From: a virus
IMG/VR virus record: IMGVR_UViG_3300007512_000021
Location: 16,643-80,642 of that record
DNA length: 64,000 nucleotides
Reading direction: 5' to 3' (one strand)
Of this stretch, positions 28,138 through 46,310 are shown in pieces. The notes below the pieces were generated by a model. The model was not told where the DNA came from. It did not search any database and saw nothing but the letters and a program-made list of their open reading frames with translations. Every line of letters begins with the position of its first letter. Position 1 is the stretch's first letter. Position numbers and translations under genes: made by a program.

Positions 28138-29217
28138 TTAGAAACTCCCCATCGAATTGACTACCACACCATCCCTACGAACTAATGCGGATGCGCCCGG
28201 TGCCGTATAAACAATACTTATTGTCACGGGGGCACCCGAATAGTTTTGAACTACGACATTACACAAGTAAGTAGTGGGGTCTTTTCGGTGCTGCTGCACT
28301 CGAACATCCACCACTCGATACAACCGCTCTTTCGTAGTCACGCTTTGGTATTTCGCTTGTTGGGCTTGGATATCCTTATGGGTCTCCAACACTCGGTTGA
28401 TCTCATCCGAAATTACACCCCCAACAGAAGCGTTGCCCTTTTTACCGACCATCTTCATGATCTGAGAGCCATACCAACGGTGCTGAAGGTTTGACCCTAA
28501 ATCTGTAAGCAGAGCCTTTAAGCAGGATTGATACAGATGATCCTCATCTCGAATCATTTGAAAATGGCCCGCCGCATCCACTCGAACATCATTCTCAACT
28601 CTCGTTGCCATACATCTGCGACACCGATTAGCTTCCGTTGTGTAAGTCACCTCAAAACGGTTGTTATTCCGCTGTTTTACGGGATAGAAAAACCGAGGAT
28701 AAGATACTGTCATGTACCCGTCTCGAAGCCCGATACCCCACGGGGGGGCGATTTCTTGCCCCGAACTGGCCCGCTGACCACTAAAACCTAAGGTCTCTAA
28801 AGACGATCCCGAAAGGGAGATTCGGCTTCCAACACCAAGCTGGAGACGATCCTCAAACAAAAGACGACCCCCTTCGTCGGACACCACCACCCCACCAAAT
28901 AGCTTGCCTAAAGTATGGGCGAGATCCTTCGTCGTATGTAGCCCAACATCCAGTTCGACTTCCTTAGTCATGCCCATGTAGGTAATCCCAAACACTCTCG
29001 CATCTGGATAGACCCGATAGGCCCCTGGAGCACCTGCGAGCAATCTTGCGGGTGTTTGTAGCCCTTCTGGTGGGATCTCTCGGTCATTCATATAAACCTT
29101 CACACCCCCCACCACTGTATGTGAGGTCTGGAGAGTCACCCCGTCTGATGAGAGCAGCACTGGCTCTCGAATCATCTCATGGGGGCAAGCAAAGGCTAAT
29201 TGAAATTCAATGGACAT
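28138..29217 (-). CDS. Baseplate wedge protein with gp25-like C-terminal domain
   Basis: 359 residues. ATG at 29217 (MSIEFQLAFACPHE) follows AGAGGAAG; the earlier ATG at 29238 lacks a binding site. Residues about 225-345 resemble gp25/gpW-type wedge proteins: QSCLKALLTDLGSNLQHRWYG, then a helix and a beta-rich end with VVDVRVQQHRKDPTTYLCNV. T4 gp25 is about 130 residues, so this protein carries some 220 extra N-terminal residues. These include a hook-like beta domain (about 85-150) and a cysteine pair CRRC at 199-202 with another Cys at 11. The TAA is followed directly by the ATG of the J-like gene. Adjacent gp25-, J- and I-like genes form the classical wedge cluster of contractile tails. Confidence 0.65.
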   Translation of the reverse strand: MSIEFQLAFACPHEMIREPVLLSSDGVTLQTSHTVVGGVKVYMNDREIPPEGLQTPARLLAGAPGAYRVYPDARVFGITYMGMTKEVELDVGLHTTKDLAHTLGKLFGGVVVSDEGGRLLFEDRLQLGVGSRISLSGSSLETLGFSGQRASSGQEIAPPWGIGLRDGYMTVSYPRFFYPVKQRNNNRFEVTYTTEANRCRRCMATRVENDVRVDAAGHFQMIRDEDHLYQSCLKALLTDLGSNLQHRWYGSQIMKMVGKKGNASVGGVISDEINRVLETHKDIQAQQAKYQSVTTKERLYRVVDVRVQQHRKDPTTYLCNVVVQNYSGAPVTISIVYTAPGASALVRRDGVVVNSMGSF

Positions 29218-29245
29218 ACACTTCCTCTGTCTGACCATAGGAAGC

Positions 29246-29263: not shown

Positions 29264-30199
29264 TCACTCGTCATCGTCCACGGGTGGGGCGGCCAGATTG
29301 TTGATCACCTCAATCCTGTTTTCCCCTTCCAGCCTCATCCATGGGGTTGTCCCACCTACCCAATCTTCACTTCCATCCTGTCGATCCAACATCAGGAAGT
29401 CATAGTGGCCTTCCTTGTAACTCTCTGGATTCGCCCTTCCGATGATGGGAATGTCCTCCTCATCCACATCGAAAAGGATGCGGTCCAAAATATTTATGTG
29501 GTGTTGTAACGTATAGGCACTGGCCCACTCTTGTGGGAGCGGCAACCCCTCAAGCAGGTTTGCAAGGCAGGACTTCAATCGGACCTTCCTCTCGTTTCGT
29601 AGCTGCTCCGCCAAGTCCATCAACTTCACGATCCGCCACTCTAAATTTTGCCTTTTTTCACGAATCGCCTGAGATGCCCAAGCACGGGAATTCACAACAT
29701 GCTCCGCTACGATTTCGGCTTTATCCCAAACCATCACCTTCCCAATACGGAGTCGGGGGTTCTTGCCGTAAATGATCTCCCCACCAGTATCGAATCCCGC
29801 ACCAGGGTTTTGACGAGTCCTTACTGTGATCAGCCCTCCGTAGGGTTCAAGATATTTCATCGTAACGGCCCCCTCATCGTCTTCCTCGAAAACCACCCCG
29901 TTTTCGGGATCAAGGAACAAGGAGATATCAAAAGGGTTCCCACCTTGAGCGATATACGCTCTCATAAGTTTTGCTAAAGTGGATTTTGGTGGAAAGGCCG
30001 CTACACCGATTCGAGTTTCCGTAGCGTGAATATCCTCAGTGTCTTTTTCCCAAAGCATAACAATGGAACCAATGCGATTGATCTCTTGAGTACACTGCTC
30101 CAAGTGTTGGTCTACATTACGGAGTTCTTGGAGAAGAAATCGGCGTAGAGCAATCCAATCGCCCATCCGAAACACACCAAGCCAACTGAAAGAAGCCAT
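29264..30199 (-). CDS. Conserved-looking baseplate-module protein, unknown function
   Basis: 311 residues, ATG at 30199 after AAGGGG at about 9 nt, TGA stop. The sequence is helical at residues 10-45, has a mixed alpha/beta middle with GGLITVRTRQNPGAGFDTGG, then a helical, charged region (about 165-215, including REKRQNLEWRIVKLMDLAEQ) and an acidic C-terminus. No enzyme motif is visible. It sits directly before the gp25-like wedge gene, so a wedge or wedge-to-hub role is plausible. Confidence 0.6.
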   Translation of the reverse strand: MASFSWLGVFRMGDWIALRRFLLQELRNVDQHLEQCTQEINRIGSIVMLWEKDTEDIHATETRIGVAAFPPKSTLAKLMRAYIAQGGNPFDISLFLDPENGVVFEEDDEGAVTMKYLEPYGGLITVRTRQNPGAGFDTGGEIIYGKNPRLRIGKVMVWDKAEIVAEHVVNSRAWASQAIREKRQNLEWRIVKLMDLAEQLRNERKVRLKSCLANLLEGLPLPQEWASAYTLQHHINILDRILFDVDEEDIPIIGRANPESYKEGHYDFLMLDRQDGSEDWVGGTTPWMRLEGENRIEVINNLAAPPVDDDE

Positions 30200-30202
30200 T
30201 TG

Positions 30203-32896
30203 CTAAACCCCTTCATCGGCTAAGAGTGCCGCCGCATCAATTTCTTCTTCTCCACCGCCGCCCCCTTCAGAAGACTCCTTCGCAGCAATGATCGCTTTGA
30301 TTAGATCCAGAATAACCAGAGGCAACCCGCCAGCCACCACAACGGCACCATGACCAACTTCTTCGGGGCCGCCATCAGGCTTGCTTTCCGCTGTCATAAA
30401 CTCGCTGATCAAGCCTTGGGTTCCCGCCCCCGTTACAACCAACATCTGAAAATCAGCGGAAATCTTGAAGTCTGAAAGCATCCGAAGGATGCCCTGAATC
30501 CGTCGAATCAACTGCTGAATCTGCATGATCCGAGACTCAATCATCTTAATGTAGTTCAAAATCTGCTGAATGATTGCCAATAAGCCTTCTCGAAGCCCTT
30601 TTAGAAACTGTAATAGCTTCTCAATGAACTCCTCCACAGGCTGTAAGAAGGTGTCCAAGGGTCTTATTACGATCCACTTCCCCTCGGAAGATAGGCGAGT
30701 AGCAACATTAAGTACGGTCAACGCTGAATTAAGGACATCTTTACTAAAAAGGTTTCGGGCGGGGATCGCAACAGCGTTGCCTTCTCTAAACTTTGTGACC
30801 CACTGCTCATCGTTTAGCTTCGCCATGTCAGCACGGGACATCGCAGTTTTTTTCATCCCCACAAACACGGGGACATTGTCCATATTAGCGTCAAGCTGTT
30901 GGATAGAATAAGTTGCAGCTTGAATCCCCAGAAAAGCATCGGTCGCCCACCGTGGGTTACAGCCGTCAAGCGCACTCTTGAAATTCCAACACCAAGCCAA
31001 TCGCATCATATGTACGCCAGGGGTAGCCTCCGAGAAGGTGTTGAACCGATTACAGTGCTCATAAATCGTGAGCTTTTTGGCTTCTTCAACGGCGAACATA
31101 TATCCAGGTTCGGGCACCCCACTACCGATACTTTTACTGACGTCGCTCCCATCAGCCGTAAAGAGTGAGGTGCCGTTAAATTCTAACATTTCCATAGGAA
31201 ACAGGAGGGCAGATGAATGTTGTTCAACTAAACCCTCGAAAACAGCTTCGGGGATGCCACTCGACATCCGAGTAAACTCTTCCGCTATCGCATTAGCTGC
31301 GACCGCAAGTTTCGTTCTGGACTCAATACCGGGTGACCAATCGGACCATGGTGCAATACCCCCAAGGGCTTTGTTTAACTTGCCCGCAAGCGGTAGGAAG
31401 TTCGTGACTGCCTGTCCAAAGGGAGCCTCCTTTTGCGACTCAGCGTCCAAATCCCCTCGGCATAAAAGAGCGATGACGGCAGCGTTCTGCACCATCTGCA
31501 TGAATTTCTTCTTTGCATCAGACGGGAAGCTGATCTTGATCTCTTGAGAGCTTCGACTCCGAGAAGCGGGTTCGGGCCAAACCCTGCACGTCACAGGCTT
31601 GGCGGGGTTAGCGATGTTGATGATCTCGAAGCCAGATTGCCCCTCGTTCTTTTCTTCATCTCCCATCCACTTAGGGGCACCATCATGGCCCACACCTTCA
31701 CCACCAGAAGCTATCGAAACCCAAACATCACGGGCTGGCTCATCCTCAGGGGTCGGTTTCCCCGACGCAACACTCTTGATTGCATAAGGCATCTCTTCTT
31801 GAACGAGCTTGAACTTGTACTCAGGGAAAAAGAACCGAGTCGCAGCGTTCATGTGAATGACATGCTGCTTTTGTCCAATTGGACCGCCTTGGGATGCCTC
31901 TGCCTTGATCAACTCGTTTAGATAGACAGGCTCTTTGTCTTGTGGGCCTTTCACCAACCAAACACCCTGCTGGCCAGGGCCCGCAGGGGTGGTCACTGGC
32001 CCGTTGCCTGTTCCTAAATATTGCTTGTCCTTCACCAGACAGGCGGAACCCCCAAAGATCCTCAAAGGCCCGCCACCAACCTCAATCGGAGCTTGAATAA
32101 AGCCGTTCTCCTTCTTACCAGCGGGTCCGGTGCCTCCCGCTTGCGGTCTGGAATATCCAGGCCACCACCCTCCAGGAAAGGTTGAGATTTCTACAATGCA
32201 ACATTCAGGGGGGAGTGGGGTAAGGGGCATCGAATAAGGTTTAGCGGGTGAGGCCGAAAACCCCCAAGTCAGGTTAGCCCTTGTTGGCGGGCTGTCGGGG
32301 GATTCCCAATGGTCCTTCAAATTCCCCCCGAATCCGAACTCGGATACGAACTCATACTTCACATCGGCAGGGGTTTGGAGGAACTTGCCTCCACCCACAT
32401 TGGAGAAAAACTTTACCAGCCCCATAATCGCATTGTAGGCTTTTATGAGGTCTGAATAATCAACTCCCATGTAGAAAAAGAGACCGAGAACGCCAGAAGC
32501 GGTACTGAAATCAGGGCGGGAAGGGTCGGTGCTGTCGATCAGCCAGTTAAAGGCTCTGGCCTCAAACGCCCCGTAGCCCCCCTCCAGTTCCTGAAGGGCT
32601 GCTTTCCAATCCGATGCGTTAACCCAAGTGTCCCAATCTCCTCGGAGATACAGGCCCGCTTTCCTCAGGTCGTTAGCGAGACTTTCAACGAGCGCAATAA
32701 GCGCATCTAAAATAGCGAGCATTGGAGACAGCAAACCGAGAACGAAAACCTTACAAATCTCGATAATGATCAATACGATATCTAAGAACACCACAAGGAG
32801 TTCTAAAGTATCGTTGATAGCCGTAATGATCGGCTCTAAAAAGGGTGGGGGAACTTCAATCGAGGCCCCGCCCCATTTGGCTGCCTCCTCTGCCAT
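30203..32896 (-). CDS. Large virion structural protein with hydrophobic N-terminus
   Basis: 897 residues, ATG at 32896 directly after the previous TAA, TAG stop. Residues about 20-75 are a long hydrophobic helical stretch (IVLIIIEICKVFVLGLL within it). The middle is polar with many Pro and Gly. Residues about 760-800 form a long amphipathic helix (IIQQILNYIKMIESRIMQIQ), followed by a conserved-looking VVTGAGTQGLISEF region, VVVAGGLPLVILDLIKAI and an acidic Gly-rich tail. I associate this C-terminal layout with structural proteins near baseplate genes in giant myophages, but I cannot name a function. The hydrophobic N-terminus may pack inside the baseplate or contact membrane. Confidence 0.6.
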   Translation of the reverse strand: MAEEAAKWGGASIEVPPPFLEPIITAINDTLELLVVFLDIVLIIIEICKVFVLGLLSPMLAILDALIALVESLANDLRKAGLYLRGDWDTWVNASDWKAALQELEGGYGAFEARAFNWLIDSTDPSRPDFSTASGVLGLFFYMGVDYSDLIKAYNAIMGLVKFFSNVGGGKFLQTPADVKYEFVSEFGFGGNLKDHWESPDSPPTRANLTWGFSASPAKPYSMPLTPLPPECCIVEISTFPGGWWPGYSRPQAGGTGPAGKKENGFIQAPIEVGGGPLRIFGGSACLVKDKQYLGTGNGPVTTPAGPGQQGVWLVKGPQDKEPVYLNELIKAEASQGGPIGQKQHVIHMNAATRFFFPEYKFKLVQEEMPYAIKSVASGKPTPEDEPARDVWVSIASGGEGVGHDGAPKWMGDEEKNEGQSGFEIINIANPAKPVTCRVWPEPASRSRSSQEIKISFPSDAKKKFMQMVQNAAVIALLCRGDLDAESQKEAPFGQAVTNFLPLAGKLNKALGGIAPWSDWSPGIESRTKLAVAANAIAEEFTRMSSGIPEAVFEGLVEQHSSALLFPMEMLEFNGTSLFTADGSDVSKSIGSGVPEPGYMFAVEEAKKLTIYEHCNRFNTFSEATPGVHMMRLAWCWNFKSALDGCNPRWATDAFLGIQAATYSIQQLDANMDNVPVFVGMKKTAMSRADMAKLNDEQWVTKFREGNAVAIPARNLFSKDVLNSALTVLNVATRLSSEGKWIVIRPLDTFLQPVEEFIEKLLQFLKGLREGLLAIIQQILNYIKMIESRIMQIQQLIRRIQGILRMLSDFKISADFQMLVVTGAGTQGLISEFMTAESKPDGGPEEVGHGAVVVAGGLPLVILDLIKAIIAAKESSEGGGGGEEEIDAAALLADEGV

Positions 32897-33205
32897 TTAG
32901 ATGCCGCCCCCATGCTTGATCTTCTTGATCTTCATGTGAAGGTCTTGGACAAGTGCTCGATCTTTCTGAAGCTGCATCTCTAATAGCTTTTGCACCTCAG
33001 TCATCATTTGAGCACCGTCTTTCATGTACTCCAACTCATCTGCACCAATGTCTCTGGTTATGTCCAACTTTCCCGAAGTCATGCCTTCTCGCAAGACTTT
33101 CAACTCAACCAGTTTCGCCCGAAGCACTTCCACCGTTTCATTGTGTTCGGTTTCTAAAGCCTCTCGGACTGCTTTTGCTTTATCTTTTGCTTCTTGATCA
33201 CTCAT
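32897..33205 (-). CDS. Small helical virion-module protein, 102 residues
   Basis: ATG at 33205 (MSDQEAKDKA) follows GGGAGG at a 5-nt spacing and overlaps nothing: the giant gene's TGA ends one base earlier. A longer start at 33268 would overlap the giant gene by about 60 nt and has no binding site. The protein is almost wholly charged and helical, with heptad-like Leu/Val/Met spacing from residues 10 to 95, and ends in a short His-Gly-Gly-Gly-Ile tail. It is probably a coiled-coil adaptor or assembly factor for its neighbours. Its TAA is followed directly by the ATG of the next gene, so the two are translationally coupled. Confidence 0.7.
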   Translation of the reverse strand: MSDQEAKDKAKAVREALETEHNETVEVLRAKLVELKVLREGMTSGKLDITRDIGADELEYMKDGAQMMTEVQKLLEMQLQKDRALVQDLHMKIKKIKHGGGI

Positions 33206-33206
33206 A

Positions 33207-36200
33207 TCAACCTCCCATTGATTCCTGTAAACGCCGCATACGCTCTCGTTCAATGAGGCGTTCAACAAGCTGCGCTTTCCAATTACGAATATTAGCCAAA
33301 GTACCGTCAGTTTTAGTTGTCCGAAGGAAAAGCCACGCCAACCGCTTCTGTCGAATACGGTCTGTCTTATCCAAAATCTGATCGATTCGTCCTAACAACA
33401 ACGGAAACCCATCCTCCTCTGAGAACTTCGTATAGAAGGGATCTGGAGTATCGTTAGGGGGATGTTCAATATCGAGAAGGATATCCTCCAAGATTACCCG
33501 TCGATCCAACGCCGATAAGCAATCGGAATCATTCAGGAAAGGGGCATACTGGTATTGGCCCGCCAAACCGTACAAGAAGTTGTTTCGAGGAACCCCCAAC
33601 CCTGTGTCTGGGATCGTCGGGTCACCTAAATCAAAGGAGTGTCGCTCGTTTTGGAAATCCCAATACGTCCCACTCTTGTCTCCCCGCATGGCCCCCTCGA
33701 AGTTTTCCATAAGAGACAGAATCCGCTCACGGTGGAACAAAATCATCTCTACCGTGTCATCTTTCAGGAACTTCGTGGGTCGAATGACCTTGTACGAAAA
33801 GGGTCCAATCGAGAACGGGGTTTCCTTGAAGGAGTTGTGGGGAGGAACCCCTGTTTCACCCCCTGGCTCATCCCAAGCGGGGCCGCCATTCGCCCACAGT
33901 CCTTGATGGGGATCTTCTCCAGCGAACGCCGTGGGCCGTAGATCCCCTTGACCTTCTCGACCGTTTGCCGTCCCATCCAGCGGATCAATCTCTCCTGATA
34001 AGGAAGATGCGCTAATCGTTGGGTAAAGGGCGAAGAAATTAAGAGGGGTAGACCCGCCTCCGTGTAGCTTATCAATTGGATTTGGTTGGCCTGAAGACCC
34101 GATGAGTTCGGAAGCTCCGAGCCGATTTGGACTCACCTGCACCCGTGTTTCTTCGATCTTCTCGATCTTGTAATAGCCTCGGTTATCGTCAAGCTCGCCC
34201 GGATAACCTTTCTCGTAACCATCAGCTTCGCTGACTGCGGTGCCAATATCTCCAAAAGGCCGTAAGCCTTCTTCAACGGGGTCGGGCTGTTCTTGTGTGT
34301 TGTCCCAACCTTCCACTTCTCCGGCAGGGTCAATAAGGAGATAGTCCCCTTCCTCGATGCCTTCCGATTGGAAATTGATCTGGCCGTCCTCCAAGCCAGC
34401 ATTTGTGTCCGTGAGAAAGTTTACGGACGCACCATATATGTCTGTATTGGGGTGTGGGGGATCGCCGGGTTCGGGAACGGGCAAGCTGGAAGCGTCCCAC
34501 TTCACAATGCCGCCAGCGGCGGGGTAGCCGTTTTCGTCATTCCCCGGCCCAAGTGCCGCCCGCCGAGTCATGATGATCTCTTCGGTAGCCAACTCTAAAA
34601 GCTGTTCGTTGGACTGCTGGTGAGGCACAGGTGGCCTGAACAAGTAGATTTCAAGCTGGTCCCCCGCTATGGGATCGTCTCCCACAAACCCTGGCGGCCC
34701 GATCTGAATCTCTGTTCCTTGCAGCCAACCAGCCCCTATATCCTCCAAGGTGCCTTCGACCTTGCTGATTTCCCCCCAACCTCGAAGCTCCCCCGTGGTC
34801 GTGTTCATCACTCGCACAATGTCGCCAACATTGATGTTCACATCATCATCGGTAAGAGGCCCAAGCTGAGTTCCCCAACCTGTAATGTCTTCGGCATCGG
34901 GTGGGGGCTTCACTATCAACTTACCGAAGGTGTACCCCTGCGTATAAGAGACACACTCGGAACGGCGGGTTTCATAAGCGAAGCGTAAGCCCTTCATGGC
35001 ATCCGATAGTGGGTCCAAAACATAGTTATGGAACCTACGGATGCGACGAACGGAGAACTGTACTCGTTCTACAAAGTGATCAAAGGGGTAATCTGGAACC
35101 GTGTCACCATCTTCATCAGCGATGAAGTCTAAGACAGTTCGTTCACCGACCTCATTCGGGTCAAGGCTTTCCTCTGTGGCTGGCACAGTGCCGTTATCAT
35201 CACAAACAACTGAACGGGTCGCCCGACCTAAATCAAAGGTCGGCCTTGGGAAGTTGGGTTCAAGGAAAACCCCCGCCTCTGCCCAAAAGGTCGCATTGAA
35301 TACCGTACCAGGGAGCAGACAGTTGAGACAGTTGTTTGCCACCGAAGCGGTGGGGTCGTTGATCCCAAATTCTCCACCAAGAGACAGAAACGAAATATCA
35401 ATGTATGTGGGGATAGTCTCGTAGGCGGCCAGAGCGTTCTCGTCTTCTTGGAACTCTCCATGAACCCAACCCGTCGCAGGGGTCTTACCTACCAGAATAT
35501 GTCCCTCTGGACCCTTATCGGGGTTGACCCCCATCCAATCGTGTTTGCGGATACGGGCACGGTTGTAAAGCCCGTCATAAGGCAACGGCGGTTCGTAATC
35601 CCCGTCTCCATGGGCGGTCCAAGTTTGGGTGTCCCCATAAGCCATATCTTCATTTTGAAGCTGAATATCTACGAACCCACGAATAGCTCGATGCTCTCGT
35701 AAGCCGTCTACGCCGAGATCGGTCGCCCTTGGGTTCGGGTCGTCGGGAAGCTCGCTCCAATCATGGCCTGACAGTCGAATATCGGGGTACTTGGTAGTGT
35801 TGGGGTGTTTGATATTGATTGGAAAGAACTTCGCTCCTGTGATGTTCTTTCCAACAGAAGCGATCACTAACTCTTTAGCGTCCTCGTAAGAAAGAACGGT
35901 GCCTCCCCCTCCTTTTGCCGTATCGAGATCAAGCGTAAAAGTTCCTGCCGCCGCATCAATCGCCGTGTATTCGCACCGAAGAACCGCTTCATCCAAGTCG
36001 GTCTGGTTCATACTGTCGGTGGGGTTTTCAAACAGGATGTAAAGGTAAGCCTCAAAAAGACCTACACCTCCGGGGTCTAACCAACTTGTTCCGTTCGTAG
36101 TGGGTGCGCCGTCAAAAGTTCGGAGACCTGAAACGGTAAGAATGTCGTTGGCCTCATCAAAAGCTGTGATAGCTGGAACACGAAGGTCCAACCACCCATC

Positions 36201-39200
36201 ATTTGTGTTCCAATTAACTGTTTCTTCGGATGCTCGAACAGGTCGCATCGGGGCTTTTTGCCCGTTGATGGTTCCAGTTCCTTCCCAAGCGGGATCGGGA
36301 TAAAACGTCCCCCCCGCTGGTGTCAGATTTTTCCCGTCCGAATGGTTTTGGGGGTCGAGGCCGTAGCGCACCAAATAGGTGCCGACTTTAGTAGAGGCGT
36401 ACTCTCCTGGCCCTGTTTGAATGTAAACCACATCTCCCGCTTCCACTTCGGGGCACTTGAAGGAGCACTCATCGGGATCGTTCAGATATGGCATAGTTTC
36501 ATCCATACTGTACGTTGAGATACGATTCGGGAACGAGCTTGAACCCGTTAACGGGTCTGCGTCTGCGTCTTGGTGCCAGAGCATGTCCCCATATCTTCCT
36601 TCGGGCAGATTGGGGGGGATCACCAGCGAGGTTGGTGTCAGGTCAGAGGACGGGATCGCCGCTGTCTTGGCCGCTTCTGTGAAGGTGATTGGGACATTCC
36701 CGTGGGCTTCAAAGCCCATCACTCTCAAGACCCCATAACCAGTTCGCCAATAGCCCACACCGTCAATCGTAGGGGGTTCCTCTCCAGCAGGTATGTTGTC
36801 GGGATCGATATCCGTCATCCAATCGTGTCGAGGAAGGAAGGTGAACGGAACGCCCCCATTAACATGCGCCATGTCGTTTACGTTGAGGGGGATCTCTACT
36901 GGCAATCCTATCCAGTTGAAGTAATCGGAGTCGGTTTCAATCGCTTGCCCCGTGACCTTGGAGACGTTCAGATCCATTTCCAAGTTGATCTCGGAAATCG
37001 GATGGGTGGTGCCTCGAACTTTCCCGTTACGGACATCCACAGGGCAGGTGAAGGTCAGACGGTCTGAATCAATGTACGCATTGACTCCATCGATAACCTC
37101 CACGCTCATAAGCACTTCCTCATAAGCGTCGGCAAAATCGCTCACAATGGCGGGGGAGTGATCAATAATATCCCCTTCCCACACCTCGGCATGGCCCCAT
37201 GTGTAGCGTTCACGAGGGATAAAGGGGGCAATACTTGGGTCTCCCGAACCATCGTTGATTTCATACGGAAGGTTGTCCGTCAGGTCGATATGGACAAACC
37301 TCGTCCAATCGAACCATGAACTCACGGCGTTGGGATCATGGTCAGGATTAGCCAACCCTTCGTCGGGGTGGCCTGGAGGGAACGGGTCTGAATACTGTTC
37401 GGGAGCTTCGGGGTGGTAGGTCCGAATCACCATCACCGCACTCGGAGAGTCGTTGGTGGTGTACAGCCATTGTTCGTGCAGGGTTCCACCTACCCCATCG
37501 GGTGTTTGGATATACCCGATGGGGGAGCCGTCTATTTCAAGTTGGAACACATGCGCTGCACCTGCCCCGCCCATAAGTTCGGGATCGTCTCCCATCGTGA
37601 CTTTGACGACATCGAGCGTAAGGAGCACGGAGCCGTCTCCCGCAAGCGCATCGGGTTCGTAAGAGTAAGTGATTGGCGGGCCGGGATCTTCGATCAAAGT
37701 CGCCCGTTGTAGAAGCTGGAAGGTCAGCTTGGTTCCGACTTCTGCTTGTGCAAGAAGGTCATTCAACCCCCCTGTAGCAACATCATATCCGGGCGTACCG
37801 CTGGAAGGATCGTAGTAGCCACTTCCAAACGGAGTGGTGTCGTTCGCCGCCCCGTCATCTACATTGAAGCCGATGATCTCGAACTCAAGCCTTGTCTCGG
37901 TGTATCCCTGCTCATGGGGGAAAAGAGGGTCCGAACCATTTACAACGGTCTCTCGAACCCGAAGCCCCGACTCCACATAAATAGCGTCCGACTCGAAGTT
38001 CCCCATCGTCGCCATGGCCCGATTGATTTCATAGTTGATCGGGGTTTCAGGCTTCGACCGAGTAACGAATCGAGGGACCGAGATAACGGAATACCTGTCT
38101 GGCTCTTCTCCATGAACGGTGTAGCCGCCTACAGACAAGAACCCTTGGACCCCTGCTGGTGCAGGGAGTGGAGCACCTTGATCTGTTTCAATAAGGACCA
38201 AATCTCCCGCTCGGAGATCCCCCAACCCACTACCATCCTCGTAAGTACCACCCACAGGGGCAGCGTCAGCCTCTAACTTCAACCCTGACCCGTCTGCTTC
38301 TGCAAGAGGGAAAGCCGTGTTGAAAATCTCATCGGGATAAACAGACTTCCACACATGGGGGAGTGGGGTGAAAGTGCTGTCCTGCTGCATAATGGCGATA
38401 ACGCTCGCCATAGCCTCCCTGAGCCGCACCAACTCTGTGTTGGTAGACTTCATATAGGGGAGGGTGTAATCCCCGCTGTCGTCCCGTGTCTCGCCTTTGA
38501 GGGCGGGGATCGCAAGGGGGGTCAAGCTGGAATTATAGAAATCCGCATCCCCCTCAATACGTTGATGTGGGTTCGGCCCGTGTTGCCCAAACATCTCGTG
38601 TATTCCGAGCATTGGAGTGGACCATTCAGGGAAAGTAAGGTCTCGAATCCGCCCGCTTCCTGAAACAGTGTAATCAAAGCCTTCTCGGTAGGTGGGTAGG
38701 CTGGAAGCGTATGCTCCCAAGTCACTAAATGAGGGATCGTCGGGGTCTACGCCTTCCGTTGAAACCCCGTCTCCGACCAGCATGACCAAAGTATCAGAAT
38801 GGGCCAGCGTGATTGGCTCCTCGTTGTTAGCGGGATCAATGATCATGTTGGGATTGGTGATGATGTCCCCTGAAGCAAAGGTCATCACGCAGCCCTTGAT
38901 GATTTCTCCAACGAAGAGTTCCTTGAACTCCTCGTTCGGACCCCACCCAGTCTTTTCGTTGTATTTCGGAACCACCATATCGCCATTCGGGTGTCCGAAT
39001 TGGAGCCTCATACCAACGGCCCATGGTGGAACATGATCTTCCCAGTTACCCGTATTCAGGTCGGGCAATCCGTTTTCAGGGTCGGTGGTGGCAAACGAAG
39101 CTATGTTGGGCCAGCCCTCCTTTAGGGGGAAATCGGGCAAATCCACCACACTGGCGATTACGGCGGGGCGGGGGATCTCGGAAAAGGAATTTGGGTCTGC

Positions 39201-42200
39201 AACCCCACCATCAAACAACTCCTCGTCCAGTTCGGGGAACCCGATAATACTGTATCGAAACACCCGTGCTCGTGCGGTTCGTGGCCGCATGGTGGTGTCC
39301 GTAACATTTGTAATGGGGCCAATAACAGGGTTCTCCACTTGACCGATAGTCGATAGGAAAGTGCTTCGGAGTTTCCAATCCATGATCTTGAGGAAAGAAT
39401 ATGTCCCAAAGTCCATATTCTTAGGGTCAGCCCCTAATCCCGGATAGGTGGTGGTGAAGTAATTAGCCTTATTCGGGAAGATGCGAGAAAGATAATGCGT
39501 CTCCTCCATCGAACGAATCCGACCCTTGATCTCAATCTGAGGCCAACCAGGAAAACGCCATCGGATACCTGAGACCCTAAAACCAATCACTACTCGGTCG
39601 TCCACATCGTTTTTGATGTATTCCATCTGATTGTCGATCAGCAGTTCTCGCCAATCGGAAGATGGCATTACCCCATCCAACTCTTCGGCAGAGTCGATGG
39701 AGAAATCTGTCGGGTCCACAATCAAATCATCTTCGTCTACGATGACATCTGTATCCGGGGGCATAAACCTCAAGAAGGCTCGCCCATACGCATAACGAGG
39801 GTTCAATTTCCCTGAAACAGGGTTGGTGAAGCCAGGGGGTGTGTATTCCAGCCCCTCTCCAACCCAAAAACGGAACTTACCGTCTCGATCTCCAACGATT
39901 CGGCCCGTAGCGGCCTCGCTGATCTGTTCAAACCCAACGCAAACTTCATTGAAGAAGCTCAGATAGGCACGGGCTGCCCGATCAGTGTCATACAAATGAT
40001 CTTGTTCAACCTTGATCCCAACCCGACCGTTCTCCCAGTTCTTATCTCCACCAACAGCAAGCGTAGAGCCGTAAGAACTTTGCTTGGCGGCGGCCTTCTT
40101 GATGATTTCTGTTGCCGCTTCGCCCGCAAAATCCAACAGTGGGATGGCTCGGTAATAGAACGAGTCTGGTGTGTGATAGGAATACGTCCCCATCAGCAGG
40201 TTCCCCAACAAACCGTTGCCTTCAGATGGGGCAACCTCGTGAAGGTATCGAAGATTGAAAGTGGGGAACTGAGGGTAGCCCTCGACCATTTTAGGCTTCA
40301 CTACTCGGATTCTAATCCTACGGAAAGTTAGCCGTTGGTCGCTCTGAATGTACTGTTGGATTGGGTACTGGAAATCGATATCCCCTGTTTGGGGATCAGC
40401 GATATAGTCTTGGAACGGGGTCATTGTGCGACCTGGAAGGGTCGTCCCAAACTTATCGACCTCTCCCCACAAAACGACATCGGTCTCTTCGGATGCCAAA
40501 AAGGGCCTTCCAAAACCTAAATACGTCGTATCGTCAGGGGGGTAGATGGGTCGGGTGCTGACCAACACTTCATCGTCCCCGTACAAAATGCCCTTAGGAA
40601 GGGGTGGGGTGATGGAAACGGTTGTCCTTGTGCCGTCCTCGGACAGTGCCAACCCTGTAATCGTATGGGGAGAGCCGCCGATCTCAATCAAGAAGCCTTG
40701 GCCCAACGCCTCGATCAAGTTCGCAAAGAAAATAACCTCTCCCCGTGTTTTCGGGGTTGGCTCAAAACCTACGTTGGAGGGTTCGGGTTCATCGGGGTTT
40801 CCGAAAACAAGCCGTTCCCCTATCGGAACCAGAAACCCGTGTGGTGAAGAAGCTGTGTTACCCCAAAGGTTCCCACTTGGGTCTTCGGAGATCACCACGG
40901 GATCAGAAGGATCTACCTCTCTTGCTACAGGCCATTCCGTAATCAGGCTTAGAACATCATTTCCAGGTGCTCTGGACCCTGCTCCCGACGATGGGCTTTC
41001 AGGATAAAAAGTAACTGTGGTTAGGTCTGTTTCCGCATCGTAGGCGACAGCTTTCAAGTAAAAGAGAAACGACACAAGACGCATCAGTTGGCCGGGGTGT
41101 ACATCCGCACTCCGATCTTCTAAAAGCTCAAATGAGGATACCTTTCCATCAAGGAAAAACGGTGGGCGGTACACGGGAGGTGCCGAAACCGTATAAACCG
41201 ACTCTCCCCCAAAGGCTTCAAGCACCGCATAAGTAATCGTGACCTTACGGCCAGCCAAAGTAGCGGCATATGTCCCATCCCAAACAGGAGTCGTCTCAAT
41301 TATGGGGGAGTCAGGGTCTAAGGGGTCGGACAGCACAGCTTCAGGAAGGTCGGGTACATCGTATTCAAGTGTGATCTCATTCGTTTCGTAATCGACCGAC
41401 GCTATGATCGGCCCATATTCTGAGGCCATCTCTGGACCCACATAGATAATAGGCTCAATGTCCTGACGGACTGTTCGCCCTGTCGGATTGAACTTGAAGG
41501 TGGTGTTATTGACCTTCTCACATTCTTCGGCTCGAACATGCAGCGGTAGGAACTCGACGATTTCTGGCAGGATGTTGTCGTCGTCATCTTTTAGAAGCTC
41601 TCCCGCCGCATTTGTCGTCTGATAGGTGGCTTCCACAATTTGCCACTCAAGCAACTGCTCTCGGAACATGAAAGCACCAGCCATCGGATTGAGAAACACA
41701 TCGGTTTGATCCTCTGTGACCATCCGAGAATCCCAATACACTTGCTCACCCATATTGTTCGCAATATCGATCTCGCTAAGAGCAATCGTGCCGTCAACCG
41801 AGTTCACCTCGGCTTTCCCCGCTTCCAACAGTTCGGGAGGGAAAAGAGTCTCTTCGTAAATGACGATTGCTTGACCATAATCGTCAAGAATCTGACTGCT
41901 GAACTTTAGCTCACGAGTATCTGCTGTAATTTCAACCCCTGTGGGGTCTTCACTGAAATCATCGCTTGTCGGAACTTCGACAAGCTCATCCGAAGCAATA
42001 AGAAGCGTGGCGATCCGAAGCCGATAATCCCCCGAAGCAAGATGGGTGTCGTCAGGGATATGGTTGGAAGTCAGAAACAAGGAAGCGTTCGCCAAAAGTC
42101 CTAACTCGGTAGTTTCCAACCACCGCACTGCGGCCCTTGGCGCAAAGTAAGATAGCCCGTCTACTTCGGATTCGATCAAAGTGTGGTGCAGCCCAAAACG

Positions 42201-45200
42201 AATCCGAACTCGTCGTTCACGAGCCAAGTCTTGACTCACATTCGCTATTAAAGCGTCAGTCCCGATCACCCCAACAGGAGATAGTAGGTGAATCTGAAAC
42301 GTCTCTCGTGGCATGTGATTGAAGCGTTTGTAGACATAATCAACACTCAATTGATCGTCGATCTCATCGGGGGTTCGTAACGAGTAGACCTCCCACGAAA
42401 CCACCCCATCTGAATCCGATGGGAAATTGGGCCACACGGTAAGAGTGTCCTCGTCAAACGCCTCGATCAAATAGGAGCCGACAGAATCCCCTGTGAGGAC
42501 TTTCAGGCGGGCACCAATGGCAATGTCAGGGATAGCGTTGAAGCCAACCCCCTCAGGCCCCGCTGAGTCGTCTGTGAACACATTCCCACCCTCATCGAAG
42601 GTGCCTTTCGCCCCCAAGGATAGAAGTGCTCCGATCTCCTGAATCAGGATAGCGTTCCCTGTCGCCCCTTCTTGGGGAAACAAGTAATCTTCTCCGTCTG
42701 TTTGATACTTATATCCGTCCGTACCGGGATCACGGCTTAAGAAGAAGCCTTTGAGGGCGGGATGTAGGCTTTCGGGAACAACCCCTTGAACCCCGAAGCT
42801 GATTGTAGATACGGGGGTCTTGGTTTGAAACGCTACCGCCCTACTCCCCAACCAAACAAAGCGACCGATCCCAAACTGGTGGAGGATATCCTCCATGTGG
42901 ACAAGACTTCGCTGGTATGGACCATCAAAAATCTCAAAGAAAACCCCTTCATCAACACCAGCCACATCTTCCAGCGGGGCTTGTTGAAGGAACATATAGG
43001 GGGAGCCACCAACATCCCCCAAATAAAGGCTTTCAATGCGGTTCGTGGCCCGAAAGTCGGGAGTTCCGTCATCGTTCCCCTTATTGAAAGGGGTTCTTTT
43101 GAAGCCGATGCAACCCCCGGTATCTGGTAGCCAGTTCAAGTCTAATGAGGTGCCAGCCAAATTGACATCTGTAAGGGGGTAGGATGTCTTCCAGAAGGGG
43201 TTGAAGCCTAAAGCCGCACACCCTGAAAAGTCCTTCTCTCCGTCCACCCCTGGAAGGATCTCAATCATCCCCTCACCCGAAGTGGCCGTTAGGAAAAGAC
43301 GGTTTCCGATGTAGCCAGCTTCGTAGCCGCTGCCGTCCAGAATAAGGTTGATGCTTTCGGAGACTTCCTTCGCCGTATATGTGTCGGGATCAACCGTCAC
43401 TTCTTCTGTAAGTGAGAGAGCTTCCCAGATTTTGTAATGACTTCCCCCAACAACTAACTGCAAAACCTCGTCACCACGAAGAGCGTAGGGTCCATCTTTC
43501 CGAGAAAACATGCGGATATCGGACGCATAAAAGGCTGGCGTAAAGTCTGTGTTTTGGAAGTAAAGTGGCAACCCCTGTCGCTCATCTTGGTTAGGGGCTG
43601 ACCGATTGAATACAAGGGGTGAAGTCTCCGCCCCACCATGATTAGAGGAGCCATAAGTAGTGTAAACCTGAGTCAGGCTTGGGCCAAAAACCCCATCCAA
43701 GTCATCGGGGTCTTTTTTGACCACCAAATCCTCAAAAGCCTTATTGGGGTTGAATAGGAAAGTGTCTCCAACCCCCCGACACTTCCGAACTACGCCTGAC
43801 TTCCCCGGCCTTCGTCCAACGACCTGACTAAAATTAGGCTCTCGCCCTGTCTTGTCCTCTTCGATCCTTATTCCAGAAACACCAAGGCCGGGAACTGGAA
43901 TCGCTACGGGAGCGTTATACCCATCAGACTCCGTAAACTCATCGGTCACAAGTGCGGGAGCCTTTAACGGTTGGGCAACTCGGCACATAGCAACGCCGTC
44001 GTAGTAAAGGGTAGCCCCTGACCACAAAGGCTCAAAATCATCGTTTGGGGCATCCACCTCCCCCATATCCGCTTTTGTTATGTCAGCGGCACTCAACTTG
44101 ATTTGACCTGTCGTCAAAGACACGCCAACTTGACCCGTGTTGATAATCGAATCGCCCAACTGCTGATCGTTATCCGCAAACTGAACGTCCAACCACTGTC
44201 GATTTCCGATCTTCAGTAGGGGTCTTTCTGTAGAACTTGGGATCGGAGAAATGAATAGAGGTTCGAGATCCGTGCCAAGGATCTTCCCCACTTCACCTTC
44301 AGACTCCGACTCGAAGATATCTTGTATGTACCAAATAGTCTGGCCCGCATACTGAGCAAAGACTCCTGGGTGCCACTGAATAATGCCGTTCTTGTCCCCA
44401 ACGATCCCAACGGGAGCGGGGTCAAGCACAGAAAAGTCGTAGGTGGCATCATCAATAATGCTGTCAGGTACAACCAAGATCCCACGGAAACCAATCGTGC
44501 CTGCCTCATCGTCCCCTAAAGGGATTGATCCAGCATCAGGACGAACCCCTAAGCGCACCATGGCTACGGAATCAGGGATTTGTGTGCCGACTAAGTAATC
44601 CCCGACAACCAGATTCTTTGGTCGAGGGGCTAACTGAGTTGTGGCTTTTTCAGCGTCCAATCGGCCCAAATTCTTGATGGGGCCGCCCTTGTAGGGTGCC
44701 CAACGCTGATCTTTCCCGCTAAACCCAAAACGAGTTTGAGAAGGGTCATTGCGAGTCCACCAAAACTTAGGGGGGGACAGATAATAACCAACCTCTGTGA
44801 CCCGATCTCCTCGTTTATGGCTCAACCCCGCCACAGAGTTCTCAGTTGGACTCAGCACACCCCGATTGAAGACGGTGTCCTCAACATAGATCACGCCAGA
44901 GTTGGGGGCGGGGCAAGAAATGTTGCCATCGGCTACCGAAAGGGTCACATCATCCCAATCGTCTGACCAATCCCCTCTACGGACGTTGATATAAGCCACC
45001 CCTGATATGGTTCGGCCACCGTCATCTGTCAAAATGACTCGGCTGCTGGCCGTCAAAGGAGCTAAAACCTGCGCCACTACCTCTAAGGCTTCAGGAACAA
45101 CCTCTCCCTCTGGCATATAGAGTTCAAACGGCTCTGTAAGGGTCAGACTGTCAATGTCCAACACCTCCGCCACAGTTACGGCGTATTCAGTCCCAAAGGA

Positions 45201-45701
45201 ATCCTCAAAAATAATGGTGGCATCAGTGCTCAGTTCAGAAACAAAATTTGTCCCAAGCCCTGTCACCAAAGTCGAGTCGTTCATAAACGCTACGATGCCC
45301 GTCAAGAACACGGGAAGAGTATCGTCCTCATCGAGACTGTTACAGGACTCAGACCCGTTTACAGGTATCCTACAAGAGCCTTGGGTCACCACGAAGTCGC
45401 CACCCTCAACCGTAGCGACACTCCCTGTGGTAGCGGCGAATACCAAGTATTCCTCTAATTCGCCCTCATTCCCCATAAGAACTGAAGAACGGTACTGATC
45501 GACACAAGGATGGGTTGGGTGATCTCCCCAAGCAGTTCGGAAGCCTTCGGAATACCCAAACCCAATGGGAGTGTGAGGTTCCGTTCCGTCAGAGAGCTTC
45601 TTAATGTCGAAATCGACACCCCCCCGTGGTGCCCCCGTTTTGGGGTCATTCGAGGGGGCTACTCTTGGCCCTCTAAGTACGTGTCCATCAAAATTGCTCA
45701 A
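33207..45701 (-). CDS. Giant structural protein, 4164 residues
   Basis: A single uninterrupted frame of 4164 codons starting TTG at 45701 (MSNFDGHVLRGP) and ending TGA. There is no strong ribosome binding site; only GGTGTAGTGG precedes the TTG. No better in-frame start exists before residue 76. The protein is very acidic and mostly beta-like. Residues about 735-835 resemble a hook/flagellin-type repeat fold also common in baseplate proteins, with TAKEVSESINLILDGSGY then a hydrophobic strand and LGF. Many short Ig-like or beta-sandwich segments are likely elsewhere. The last ~150 residues are helical and basic (near FHRERILSLMENFE and ERERMRRLQESMGG). It lies between spike and wedge genes, so a baseplate or baseplate-attached giant is the likeliest role. 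I recognise no enzyme motif. Among the larger phage proteins known in general. Confidence 0.7.
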   Translation of the reverse strand: MSNFDGHVLRGPRVAPSNDPKTGAPRGGVDFDIKKLSDGTEPHTPIGFGYSEGFRTAWGDHPTHPCVDQYRSSVLMGNEGELEEYLVFAATTGSVATVEGGDFVVTQGSCRIPVNGSESCNSLDEDDTLPVFLTGIVAFMNDSTLVTGLGTNFVSELSTDATIIFEDSFGTEYAVTVAEVLDIDSLTLTEPFELYMPEGEVVPEALEVVAQVLAPLTASSRVILTDDGGRTISGVAYINVRRGDWSDDWDDVTLSVADGNISCPAPNSGVIYVEDTVFNRGVLSPTENSVAGLSHKRGDRVTEVGYYLSPPKFWWTRNDPSQTRFGFSGKDQRWAPYKGGPIKNLGRLDAEKATTQLAPRPKNLVVGDYLVGTQIPDSVAMVRLGVRPDAGSIPLGDDEAGTIGFRGILVVPDSIIDDATYDFSVLDPAPVGIVGDKNGIIQWHPGVFAQYAGQTIWYIQDIFESESEGEVGKILGTDLEPLFISPIPSSTERPLLKIGNRQWLDVQFADNDQQLGDSIINTGQVGVSLTTGQIKLSAADITKADMGEVDAPNDDFEPLWSGATLYYDGVAMCRVAQPLKAPALVTDEFTESDGYNAPVAIPVPGLGVSGIRIEEDKTGREPNFSQVVGRRPGKSGVVRKCRGVGDTFLFNPNKAFEDLVVKKDPDDLDGVFGPSLTQVYTTYGSSNHGGAETSPLVFNRSAPNQDERQGLPLYFQNTDFTPAFYASDIRMFSRKDGPYALRGDEVLQLVVGGSHYKIWEALSLTEEVTVDPDTYTAKEVSESINLILDGSGYEAGYIGNRLFLTATSGEGMIEILPGVDGEKDFSGCAALGFNPFWKTSYPLTDVNLAGTSLDLNWLPDTGGCIGFKRTPFNKGNDDGTPDFRATNRIESLYLGDVGGSPYMFLQQAPLEDVAGVDEGVFFEIFDGPYQRSLVHMEDILHQFGIGRFVWLGSRAVAFQTKTPVSTISFGVQGVVPESLHPALKGFFLSRDPGTDGYKYQTDGEDYLFPQEGATGNAILIQEIGALLSLGAKGTFDEGGNVFTDDSAGPEGVGFNAIPDIAIGARLKVLTGDSVGSYLIEAFDEDTLTVWPNFPSDSDGVVSWEVYSLRTPDEIDDQLSVDYVYKRFNHMPRETFQIHLLSPVGVIGTDALIANVSQDLARERRVRIRFGLHHTLIESEVDGLSYFAPRAAVRWLETTELGLLANASLFLTSNHIPDDTHLASGDYRLRIATLLIASDELVEVPTSDDFSEDPTGVEITADTRELKFSSQILDDYGQAIVIYEETLFPPELLEAGKAEVNSVDGTIALSEIDIANNMGEQVYWDSRMVTEDQTDVFLNPMAGAFMFREQLLEWQIVEATYQTTNAAGELLKDDDDNILPEIVEFLPLHVRAEECEKVNNTTFKFNPTGRTVRQDIEPIIYVGPEMASEYGPIIASVDYETNEITLEYDVPDLPEAVLSDPLDPDSPIIETTPVWDGTYAATLAGRKVTITYAVLEAFGGESVYTVSAPPVYRPPFFLDGKVSSFELLEDRSADVHPGQLMRLVSFLFYLKAVAYDAETDLTTVTFYPESPSSGAGSRAPGNDVLSLITEWPVAREVDPSDPVVISEDPSGNLWGNTASSPHGFLVPIGERLVFGNPDEPEPSNVGFEPTPKTRGEVIFFANLIEALGQGFLIEIGGSPHTITGLALSEDGTRTTVSITPPLPKGILYGDDEVLVSTRPIYPPDDTTYLGFGRPFLASEETDVVLWGEVDKFGTTLPGRTMTPFQDYIADPQTGDIDFQYPIQQYIQSDQRLTFRRIRIRVVKPKMVEGYPQFPTFNLRYLHEVAPSEGNGLLGNLLMGTYSYHTPDSFYYRAIPLLDFAGEAATEIIKKAAAKQSSYGSTLAVGGDKNWENGRVGIKVEQDHLYDTDRAARAYLSFFNEVCVGFEQISEAATGRIVGDRDGKFRFWVGEGLEYTPPGFTNPVSGKLNPRYAYGRAFLRFMPPDTDVIVDEDDLIVDPTDFSIDSAEELDGVMPSSDWRELLIDNQMEYIKNDVDDRVVIGFRVSGIRWRFPGWPQIEIKGRIRSMEETHYLSRIFPNKANYFTTTYPGLGADPKNMDFGTYSFLKIMDWKLRSTFLSTIGQVENPVIGPITNVTDTTMRPRTARARVFRYSIIGFPELDEELFDGGVADPNSFSEIPRPAVIASVVDLPDFPLKEGWPNIASFATTDPENGLPDLNTGNWEDHVPPWAVGMRLQFGHPNGDMVVPKYNEKTGWGPNEEFKELFVGEIIKGCVMTFASGDIITNPNMIIDPANNEEPITLAHSDTLVMLVGDGVSTEGVDPDDPSFSDLGAYASSLPTYREGFDYTVSGSGRIRDLTFPEWSTPMLGIHEMFGQHGPNPHQRIEGDADFYNSSLTPLAIPALKGETRDDSGDYTLPYMKSTNTELVRLREAMASVIAIMQQDSTFTPLPHVWKSVYPDEIFNTAFPLAEADGSGLKLEADAAPVGGTYEDGSGLGDLRAGDLVLIETDQGAPLPAPAGVQGFLSVGGYTVHGEEPDRYSVISVPRFVTRSKPETPINYEINRAMATMGNFESDAIYVESGLRVRETVVNGSDPLFPHEQGYTETRLEFEIIGFNVDDGAANDTTPFGSGYYDPSSGTPGYDVATGGLNDLLAQAEVGTKLTFQLLQRATLIEDPGPPITYSYEPDALAGDGSVLLTLDVVKVTMGDDPELMGGAGAAHVFQLEIDGSPIGYIQTPDGVGGTLHEQWLYTTNDSPSAVMVIRTYHPEAPEQYSDPFPPGHPDEGLANPDHDPNAVSSWFDWTRFVHIDLTDNLPYEINDGSGDPSIAPFIPRERYTWGHAEVWEGDIIDHSPAIVSDFADAYEEVLMSVEVIDGVNAYIDSDRLTFTCPVDVRNGKVRGTTHPISEINLEMDLNVSKVTGQAIETDSDYFNWIGLPVEIPLNVNDMAHVNGGVPFTFLPRHDWMTDIDPDNIPAGEEPPTIDGVGYWRTGYGVLRVMGFEAHGNVPITFTEAAKTAAIPSSDLTPTSLVIPPNLPEGRYGDMLWHQDADADPLTGSSSFPNRISTYSMDETMPYLNDPDECSFKCPEVEAGDVVYIQTGPGEYASTKVGTYLVRYGLDPQNHSDGKNLTPAGGTFYPDPAWEGTGTINGQKAPMRPVRASEETVNWNTNDGWLDLRVPAITAFDEANDILTVSGLRTFDGAPTTNGTSWLDPGGVGLFEAYLYILFENPTDSMNQTDLDEAVLRCEYTAIDAAAGTFTLDLDTAKGGGGTVLSYEDAKELVIASVGKNITGAKFFPINIKHPNTTKYPDIRLSGHDWSELPDDPNPRATDLGVDGLREHRAIRGFVDIQLQNEDMAYGDTQTWTAHGDGDYEPPLPYDGLYNRARIRKHDWMGVNPDKGPEGHILVGKTPATGWVHGEFQEDENALAAYETIPTYIDISFLSLGGEFGINDPTASVANNCLNCLLPGTVFNATFWAEAGVFLEPNFPRPTFDLGRATRSVVCDDNGTVPATEESLDPNEVGERTVLDFIADEDGDTVPDYPFDHFVERVQFSVRRIRRFHNYVLDPLSDAMKGLRFAYETRRSECVSYTQGYTFGKLIVKPPPDAEDITGWGTQLGPLTDDDVNINVGDIVRVMNTTTGELRGWGEISKVEGTLEDIGAGWLQGTEIQIGPPGFVGDDPIAGDQLEIYLFRPPVPHQQSNEQLLELATEEIIMTRRAALGPGNDENGYPAAGGIVKWDASSLPVPEPGDPPHPNTDIYGASVNFLTDTNAGLEDGQINFQSEGIEEGDYLLIDPAGEVEGWDNTQEQPDPVEEGLRPFGDIGTAVSEADGYEKGYPGELDDNRGYYKIEKIEETRVQVSPNRLGASELIGSSGQPNPIDKLHGGGSTPLNFFALYPTISASSLSGEIDPLDGTANGREGQGDLRPTAFAGEDPHQGLWANGGPAWDEPGGETGVPPHNSFKETPFSIGPFSYKVIRPTKFLKDDTVEMILFHRERILSLMENFEGAMRGDKSGTYWDFQNERHSFDLGDPTIPDTGLGVPRNNFLYGLAGQYQYAPFLNDSDCLSALDRRVILEDILLDIEHPPNDTPDPFYTKFSEEDGFPLLLGRIDQILDKTDRIRQKRLAWLFLRTTKTDGTLANIRNWKAQLVERLIERERMRRLQESMGG

Positions 45702-45713
45702 ACCACTACACCA

Positions 45714-46310
45714 TCAAGAAATCATGTTGCTTGGACTTGATCCCGCCGCCACAGCGGGAGCGGGAGTCACGGGGGAGATTGCACCTGTCCCAAACCCTAA
45801 GGCAAGGTTCAAAGCAATCCCATTTCCAATACCTGTTGCTAACATGGGTAACAATACCCCCTTCATACCCACGGCCTTGAATCCGCTCTGAATCGACTTG
45901 ATTAATTTAGGTGAATTAGACACCACCACCTTAGCAATATCGGCCCCACCTGAAACACCTGCAACCGACCCCCTGTAATATGCGCTTTGATTTATAGTGT
46001 TCGAGAACCCGATAGAGATCGCAGTCGCCATCTCCACCATCTTGACCCCCTTTAGGCCAGCAGCAAGGCAAGCCCCTATCACCACTGGCGGTGCCGGGGG
46101 GCAAATTACCTTACCGCTCGATATCATCCCCGCACCCGCTGGCCCTACTGGACAAACACCGACCAGCATCGCATTAGAGGTTTGGGCATTGATCCAGTTC
46201 TGAACCCCCATCCCAATCCCATTGGTCATCATCAACCAACCCGGAGCCGTGGACTTGAAACTGCTTGCTGAACGAATGTTTTGAGCAAGCGACACCCCAA
46301 TAACAGGCAT
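45714..46310 (-). CDS. Small hydrophobic Gly/Ala-rich protein following the spike
   Basis: 198 residues. ATG at 46310 (MPVIGVSLAQ) follows AAAGGAGG at 5 nt and leaves an 11-nt gap after the spike gene. A longer start at 46388 would overlap the spike gene and has no such signal. The sequence has two Gly/Ala/Val-rich hydrophobic blocks, one near residues 43-85 with three cysteines and prolines, and one near residues 150-195. Its place after the spike is where tip (PAAR-type) proteins are often found, but I see no PAAR histidine/cysteine pattern. It may be a spike-associated or membrane-contacting component. Function unknown. It ends in TGA, in the same frame as the giant gene downstream. Confidence 0.6.
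   Translation of the reverse strand: MPVIGVSLAQNIRSASSFKSTAPGWLMMTNGIGMGVQNWINAQTSNAMLVGVCPVGPAGAGMISSGKVICPPAPPVVIGACLAAGLKGVKMVEMATAISIGFSNTINQSAYYRGSVAGVSGGADIAKVVVSNSPKLIKSIQSGFKAVGMKGVLLPMLATGIGNGIALNLALGFGTGAISPVTPAPAVAAGSSPSNMIS

Follow-up and report, generated by a model that had tools for sequence, protein, structure and literature searches.

A giant protein, probably structural, encoded among the baseplate genes of uncultured huge phages

The gp7 and gp10 proteins of bacteriophage T4 are peripheral multidomain proteins of the baseplate wedge. Huge phages, most of which have not been cultured, are common; for the most part their tail machines are unknown. Their predicted proteins range up to 7,694 aa, and some of these have been tentatively called structural (Al-Shayeb et al. 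2020, PMC7162821). On the strength of that passage giant virion proteins are therefore a known kind; the family described here is itself new, and the passage identifies neither it, its gene order nor its relatives. Judged by the J protein, the nearest isolates to the virus analysed here are Tunturi_5 and Bacillus phage G. Tunturiibacter phage Tunturi_5 is a contractile-tailed jumbo phage (PMC11924767). Its gp240–gp257 cluster contains homologues of the hub, gp25 and J genes found here, together with a match to the spike; the gp184–gp189 cluster of phage G contains the homologous hub, gp25 and J together with a gpI-like match. In the slot ahead of gp25, phage G has a single gene of 334 aa and Tunturi_5 has several large genes. 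A profile of the giant protein described below found no detectable homologue among the frames of phage G, Tunturi_5 and Virus Rctr197k.

The window, the whole stretch of 64,000 nt that was analysed, is taken from a virus record of 80,642 bases (IMGVR_UViG_3300007512_000021). Its features are collected in Table 1. The giant gene comprises 4,164 codons with zero internal stops, starting with TTG at 45701 and ending with the stop codon at 33209–33207; the probability of a frame of this length arising by chance is near 10^-84. The same locus is present in an independent record of 152,523 bases (IMGVR_UViG_3300007760_000001), with 7 differences and no indels in 23,863 bases (99.97% identity), and the frame is therefore not a private assembly error. 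Thus the single intact frame of 12.5 kb claimed in the original prediction is borne out, with relatives that are also intact.

Table 1. Features of the giant gene, its neighbours and the sheath matches of relatives. Coordinates refer to the window unless a record is named; residues are those of the giant protein
Feature	Coordinates	Strand	Remarks
Giant baseplate protein (probable)	33207..45701	(-)	4,164 aa, 456 kDa, TTG start
Extra barrel-like module, residues 124-192	45126..45332	(-)	insertion in the giants of the window and L053; phrog_17834 E=0.0086 here, 1.3e-6 in L053
Domain common with gp25 N-terminal extension, residues 727-822 (tentative)	43236..43523	(-)	hhalign prob 86.5, E 4.6e-6
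Small barrel-like module common with gpI-like 506-aa protein, residues 1024-1082	42456..42632	(-)	reciprocal hmmsearch
Conserved core, residues 1487-2460	38322..41243	(-)	long helix near 1896-1932; AlphaFold2 pLDDT 80
Variable region, residues 2461-3545	35067..38321	(-)	lineage-specific modules in relatives; median pairwise identity 0.29-0.31 vs 0.36-0.44 elsewhere
Conserved C-terminal part, residues 3530-4164	33210..35114	(-)	helical domain at end; AlphaFold2 model
Hub, 1,627 aa	48730..53613	(-)	53 loci; phrog_52 E=7.8e-4; Tunturi_5 gp254 E=2e-39; phage G gp185 E=2e-6
Spike, 783 aa	46322..48673	(-)	56 loci; family members match baseplate families phrog_4011, phrog_9992; Tunturi_5 gp253 E=1.2e-9
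g224, small Gly/Ala-rich protein before giant	45714..46310	(-)	62 loci; alignment: probable true start Met27
g123, short, probably helical from its sequence	32897..33268	(-)	listed frame overlaps giant 3' end; few loci
g897, after giant	30203..32896	(-)	60 loci; hydrophobic N-terminal stretch
g311, conserved partner gene	29264..30199	(-)	51 loci
gp25/W homologue, baseplate wedge	28138..29238	(-)	42 loci; N-terminal extension; phrog_975 E=1.4e-9; phrog_43 E=2.6e-6
J / gp6 homologue, baseplate, 1,161 aa	24652..28137	(-)	41 loci; PF04865 E=7.4e-20; phrog_6 E=1.8e-25
gpI-like wedge protein, 506 aa	23132..24652	(-)	phage G gp189 N-terminus E=6e-18; phrog_1160 baseplate E=8.5e-4, one member
Sheath match	G002:C1:169105-170244
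Sheath match	G003:C1:169823-170992
Sheath match	G004:C1:284523-285695
Sheath match	G005:C1:214855-216009
Sheath match	G007:C1:181079-182218
Sheath match	LR745208.1:330442-331572

The giant family is real, widespread and undescribed; a search of the literature gave no description of it or of its place in the baseplate cluster. A tblastn search of 50,697 phage records found 1 relative, an unannotated 3,642-aa frame in LR745208.1, an uncultured huge phage of 485 kb. It is collinear with the giant of the window from the first residue to the last, and their best segment shows about 32% identity. Viral contigs scanned with a profile gave 72 loci with relatives. A second scan found 7, most of them shared with the first, which form a clade further removed, their giants being about 3,007–3,049 aa long. 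The complete frames number 59, which reduce to 49 of 3,007–4,164 aa that are non-redundant at 90% identity, starting with ATG (37), GTG (9) or TTG (3). The median pairwise identity in the family is 0.38. Bacterial and archaeal genomes, when scanned, gave no relative and hence no pointer to a host. At one locus (L006:9638-10012) the giant carries at its start 125 additional residues of 'GIASAEAFG' repeats, which match a minor tail protein PHROG (4.6e-18).

The 48 other non-redundant loci all keep the giant as a single intact frame (3,007–4,024 aa), that of the window being the longest, and the closest pairs have a dN/dS of about 0.1–0.3, corresponding to purifying selection. These observations, together with the second assembly and the full-length collinear homologue, leave a negligible probability that separate genes were joined in assembly or that the frame is unexpressed. 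Slices of the protein were also compared with known separate proteins that such an artefact might have joined, and none matched. The split frame in one record (L051:9992-21135) is what such a reading could draw upon. It is the sole split giant seen, its two frames (2,189 and 1,589 aa) sharing an overlap at 16366–16561, and results from a frameshift that is either an assembly error or recent. The artefact was already refuted by the relatives.

The order hub, spike, g224, giant, g897, g311, gp25, J, gpI-like is kept across tens of loci, so that the giant belongs to a conserved myophage baseplate cluster. It had been placed between the spike and wedge genes, and the spike and gp25 genes do flank it; the slot is shared with g224 upstream and with g123, g897 and g311 downstream, and the giant is therefore not the sole gene within it. 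The further suggestion that it replaces standard wedge proteins absent from this DNA is not supported, since gp25, J and the gpI-like protein are all encoded directly downstream in the same cluster. The cluster is dispersed in LR745208.1: its spike and J genes lie elsewhere in the genome, and the giant still adjoins a g897 homologue of 867 aa; adjacency to the wedge genes is therefore not obligatory.

The pairwise distances of the giant follow those of the core baseplate genes, with correlations of r=0.93 for J, 0.92 for g897, 0.89 for g590, 0.88 for the hub and g221 and 0.85 for the spike and gp25. The median identity of the giant (0.38) lies close to those of the spike (0.385) and the hub (0.33). 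Such correlations rise with ancestry shared across the whole genome, and therefore show common inheritance rather than contact. Because it has evolved together with the tail-tip machinery, the giant is most likely a very large component of the apparatus by which the host is gripped and pierced. It might instead be delivered into or onto the host at infection as an effector or lytic component, as could be imagined from the adjoining spike gene and the hydrophobic N-terminal stretch of g897. This seems very improbable, as the giant evolves at a rate matching the core tail genes, and Pfam scans (the whole giant of the window; in relatives, the variable and C-terminal regions) gave no enzyme domain.

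Tail sheath genes place the giant-bearing viruses among contractile-tailed phages. The sheath of phage G finds a match in six of eight giant-bearing records (E 8e-27 to 2e-38; Table 1); the fragments G001 and G009 gave none, and the PF04984 sheath model gives nothing in the relatives. The frames containing the sheath are 1,607–1,833 aa in length. Among the tabulated sheaths considered from a review (PMC9230969) the longest has 1,283 aa, less than any of these frames; the review also states that sheaths of three or more domains are encoded by most phages whose genomes exceed 100 kb. With both the giant and the sheath frames oversized, the enlargement therefore affects several tail proteins. These phages have large genes for the sheath, the hub and the baseplate alike, and the giant family suggests that tail proteins grew by the addition of modules.

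The complete giant of the window gave no match when scanned against Pfam and PHROG, and in the searches run its conserved body has no counterpart among Pfam, PHROG or PDB families. Profile searches with three slices against PDB sequences gave chance-level matches only. PHROG 2885, labelled 'baseplate wedge subunit', is likewise very long, with a profile of 4,179 positions. It matches an 84-residue module in the giant of locus L056 and, weakly, L031, and matches neither the conserved body nor the giant of the window; there is thus no homology over the body. Structure prediction by slices with AlphaFold2, as proposed at the outset, gave two folds that are confident at the level of domains, for residues 1487–2460 (pLDDT 80.3, pTM 0.57) and 3530–4164 (pLDDT 83.5, pTM 0.83). 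These models span about 1,600 of the 4,164 residues. Foldseek searches (two models against the PDB, one against BFVD) gave no match at E≤0.001 for either fold. The best remaining hits were short beta-barrel pieces and one low-TM match of 342 columns to a J-like protein (1.8e-3). Within the slices searched and the residues folded, the giant thus resembles no solved baseplate protein in sequence, nor significantly in fold, T4 gp7 and gp10 included. These last are possible functional analogues, with no relation of sequence or fold in the searches of solved structures.

The protein is acidic, as predicted, with a pI of 4.34 (645 D/E and 298 K/R residues) and a range of 4.2–5.2 in the family. It is also rich in beta structure in the models, where the one for the C-terminal part has more strand than helix over its first 420 residues and the elements assigned in that of 1487–2460 are mostly strand. 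The basic helical end that had been described stands in part. The last 215 residues (3950–4164) are 52% helix in the model; the last 64 are basic here (pI 11.4), which is not a family trait, the values for the family running from 4.1 to 11.7 with a median of 6.8. Internal repeats are weak (1517–1572 with 1649–1704, prob 92; 437–543 with 1261–1315, prob 85) and do not form an array.

Two modules, the second of them tentative, link the giant with its wedge neighbours. The module at 1024–1082 and the gpI-like protein find one another by hmmsearch in both directions (E to 8e-8 and 6e-8), with 27 of 28 matches at this position and no decoys. The N-terminal extension of gp25 matched four giants by hmmsearch, all at 727–822 (best E 1.7e-4, no reversed decoys), although the link is the weaker one. 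The variable region has recruited further modules in single relatives. PF21722 Gly_rich_2 is present in one member (2.4e-23); L062 carries a glycine-rich insertion and phrog_2295. The modules of L030, L031 and L056 match families with baseplate wedge, tail fibre, virion structural or head closure labels, and there are others besides; the L056 module found no match in the phage collection. As virion proteins share these small modules promiscuously, they argue for a structural role at the surface and for no particular position. The recruited modules are also present in head-protein families, and so alone do not prove a location in the tail.

A beta-rich chain with glycine-rich and fibre-family modules in single members could also be a long tail fibre or receptor-binding appendage on the baseplate, and not part of the wedge ring. 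We consider this unlikely. Tail fibres have a conserved N-terminal anchor and a variable C-terminal tip, whereas the variability of the giant is internal (2461–3545) and both ends are conserved, and its divergence equals that of the spike and hub. It contrasts with a 638-aa fibre-like protein of the same cluster (21203–23119), whose conservation among relatives is mainly N-terminal, as for a fibre with a fixed anchor. The virion proteins of T4-like and phiKZ-like phages are known to be processed, and the length of the giant and the differing character of its domains along the chain might suggest a polyprotein cut by a phage protease into several baseplate proteins. The absence of any match between a slice and a known separate baseplate protein, and the single frame kept by complete relatives, make this improbable.

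The giant is very probably a structural baseplate protein, as the original prediction had proposed; the gene order, the distances to J, g897, hub and spike, and the modules common with the gpI-like protein and less strongly with the gp25 extension argue for this. That it is a modular protein associated with the wedge, with its variable modules outward, is the reading we favour, with rather less assurance. Counting against it are the missing matches to solved baseplate proteins and predicted viral structures, the displaced spike and J of LR745208.1, and the want of a detectable giant in phage G and Tunturi_5. A folded appendage, the alternative in the original prediction, may also be its form. 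It would form one very long structural chain in the baseplate of a contractile-tailed huge phage, a string of small beta domains followed by the conserved C-terminal helical domain. Such a chain may have arisen as modules were added to an ancestral set of baseplate genes like those for hub, spike, gp25, J and gpI. In the virion the conserved core and C-terminus would most likely join the wedge ring of gp25, J and the gpI-like protein, contacting the wedges and surrounding or extending them, with the giant in six copies or a multiple. Residues 2461–3545 would face outward and bear exchangeable modules of surface or fibre type. It is possible, if doubtful, that the greater part of the peripheral baseplate consists of one such chain per wedge, 3,000–4,200 residues long, into which a slot for exchangeable surface modules is built. 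Six copies would then amount to about 2.7 MDa, and host-facing change would occur inside a baseplate protein and not only in separate fibres. The family provides a defined and widespread set, with conserved gene order, alignments and two confident partial models.

Some minor features of the surrounding genes were also observed. The protein g897, whose hydrophobic N-terminal stretch is long, has in its C-terminal part a weak match to a tape-measure PHROG (E=0.004), and there is a separate tape-measure-like gene at 56174–60721. In another locus (L089:13142-19687, minus strand) a frame of 2,181 aa is a fusion, matching the gpI-like protein and a 1,673-aa protein that are encoded by separate genes in the window. 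At 62025–62457 of the window tandem repeats of 15 and 12 bases lie within the gene for a 371-aa protein, and encode short repeated peptides.
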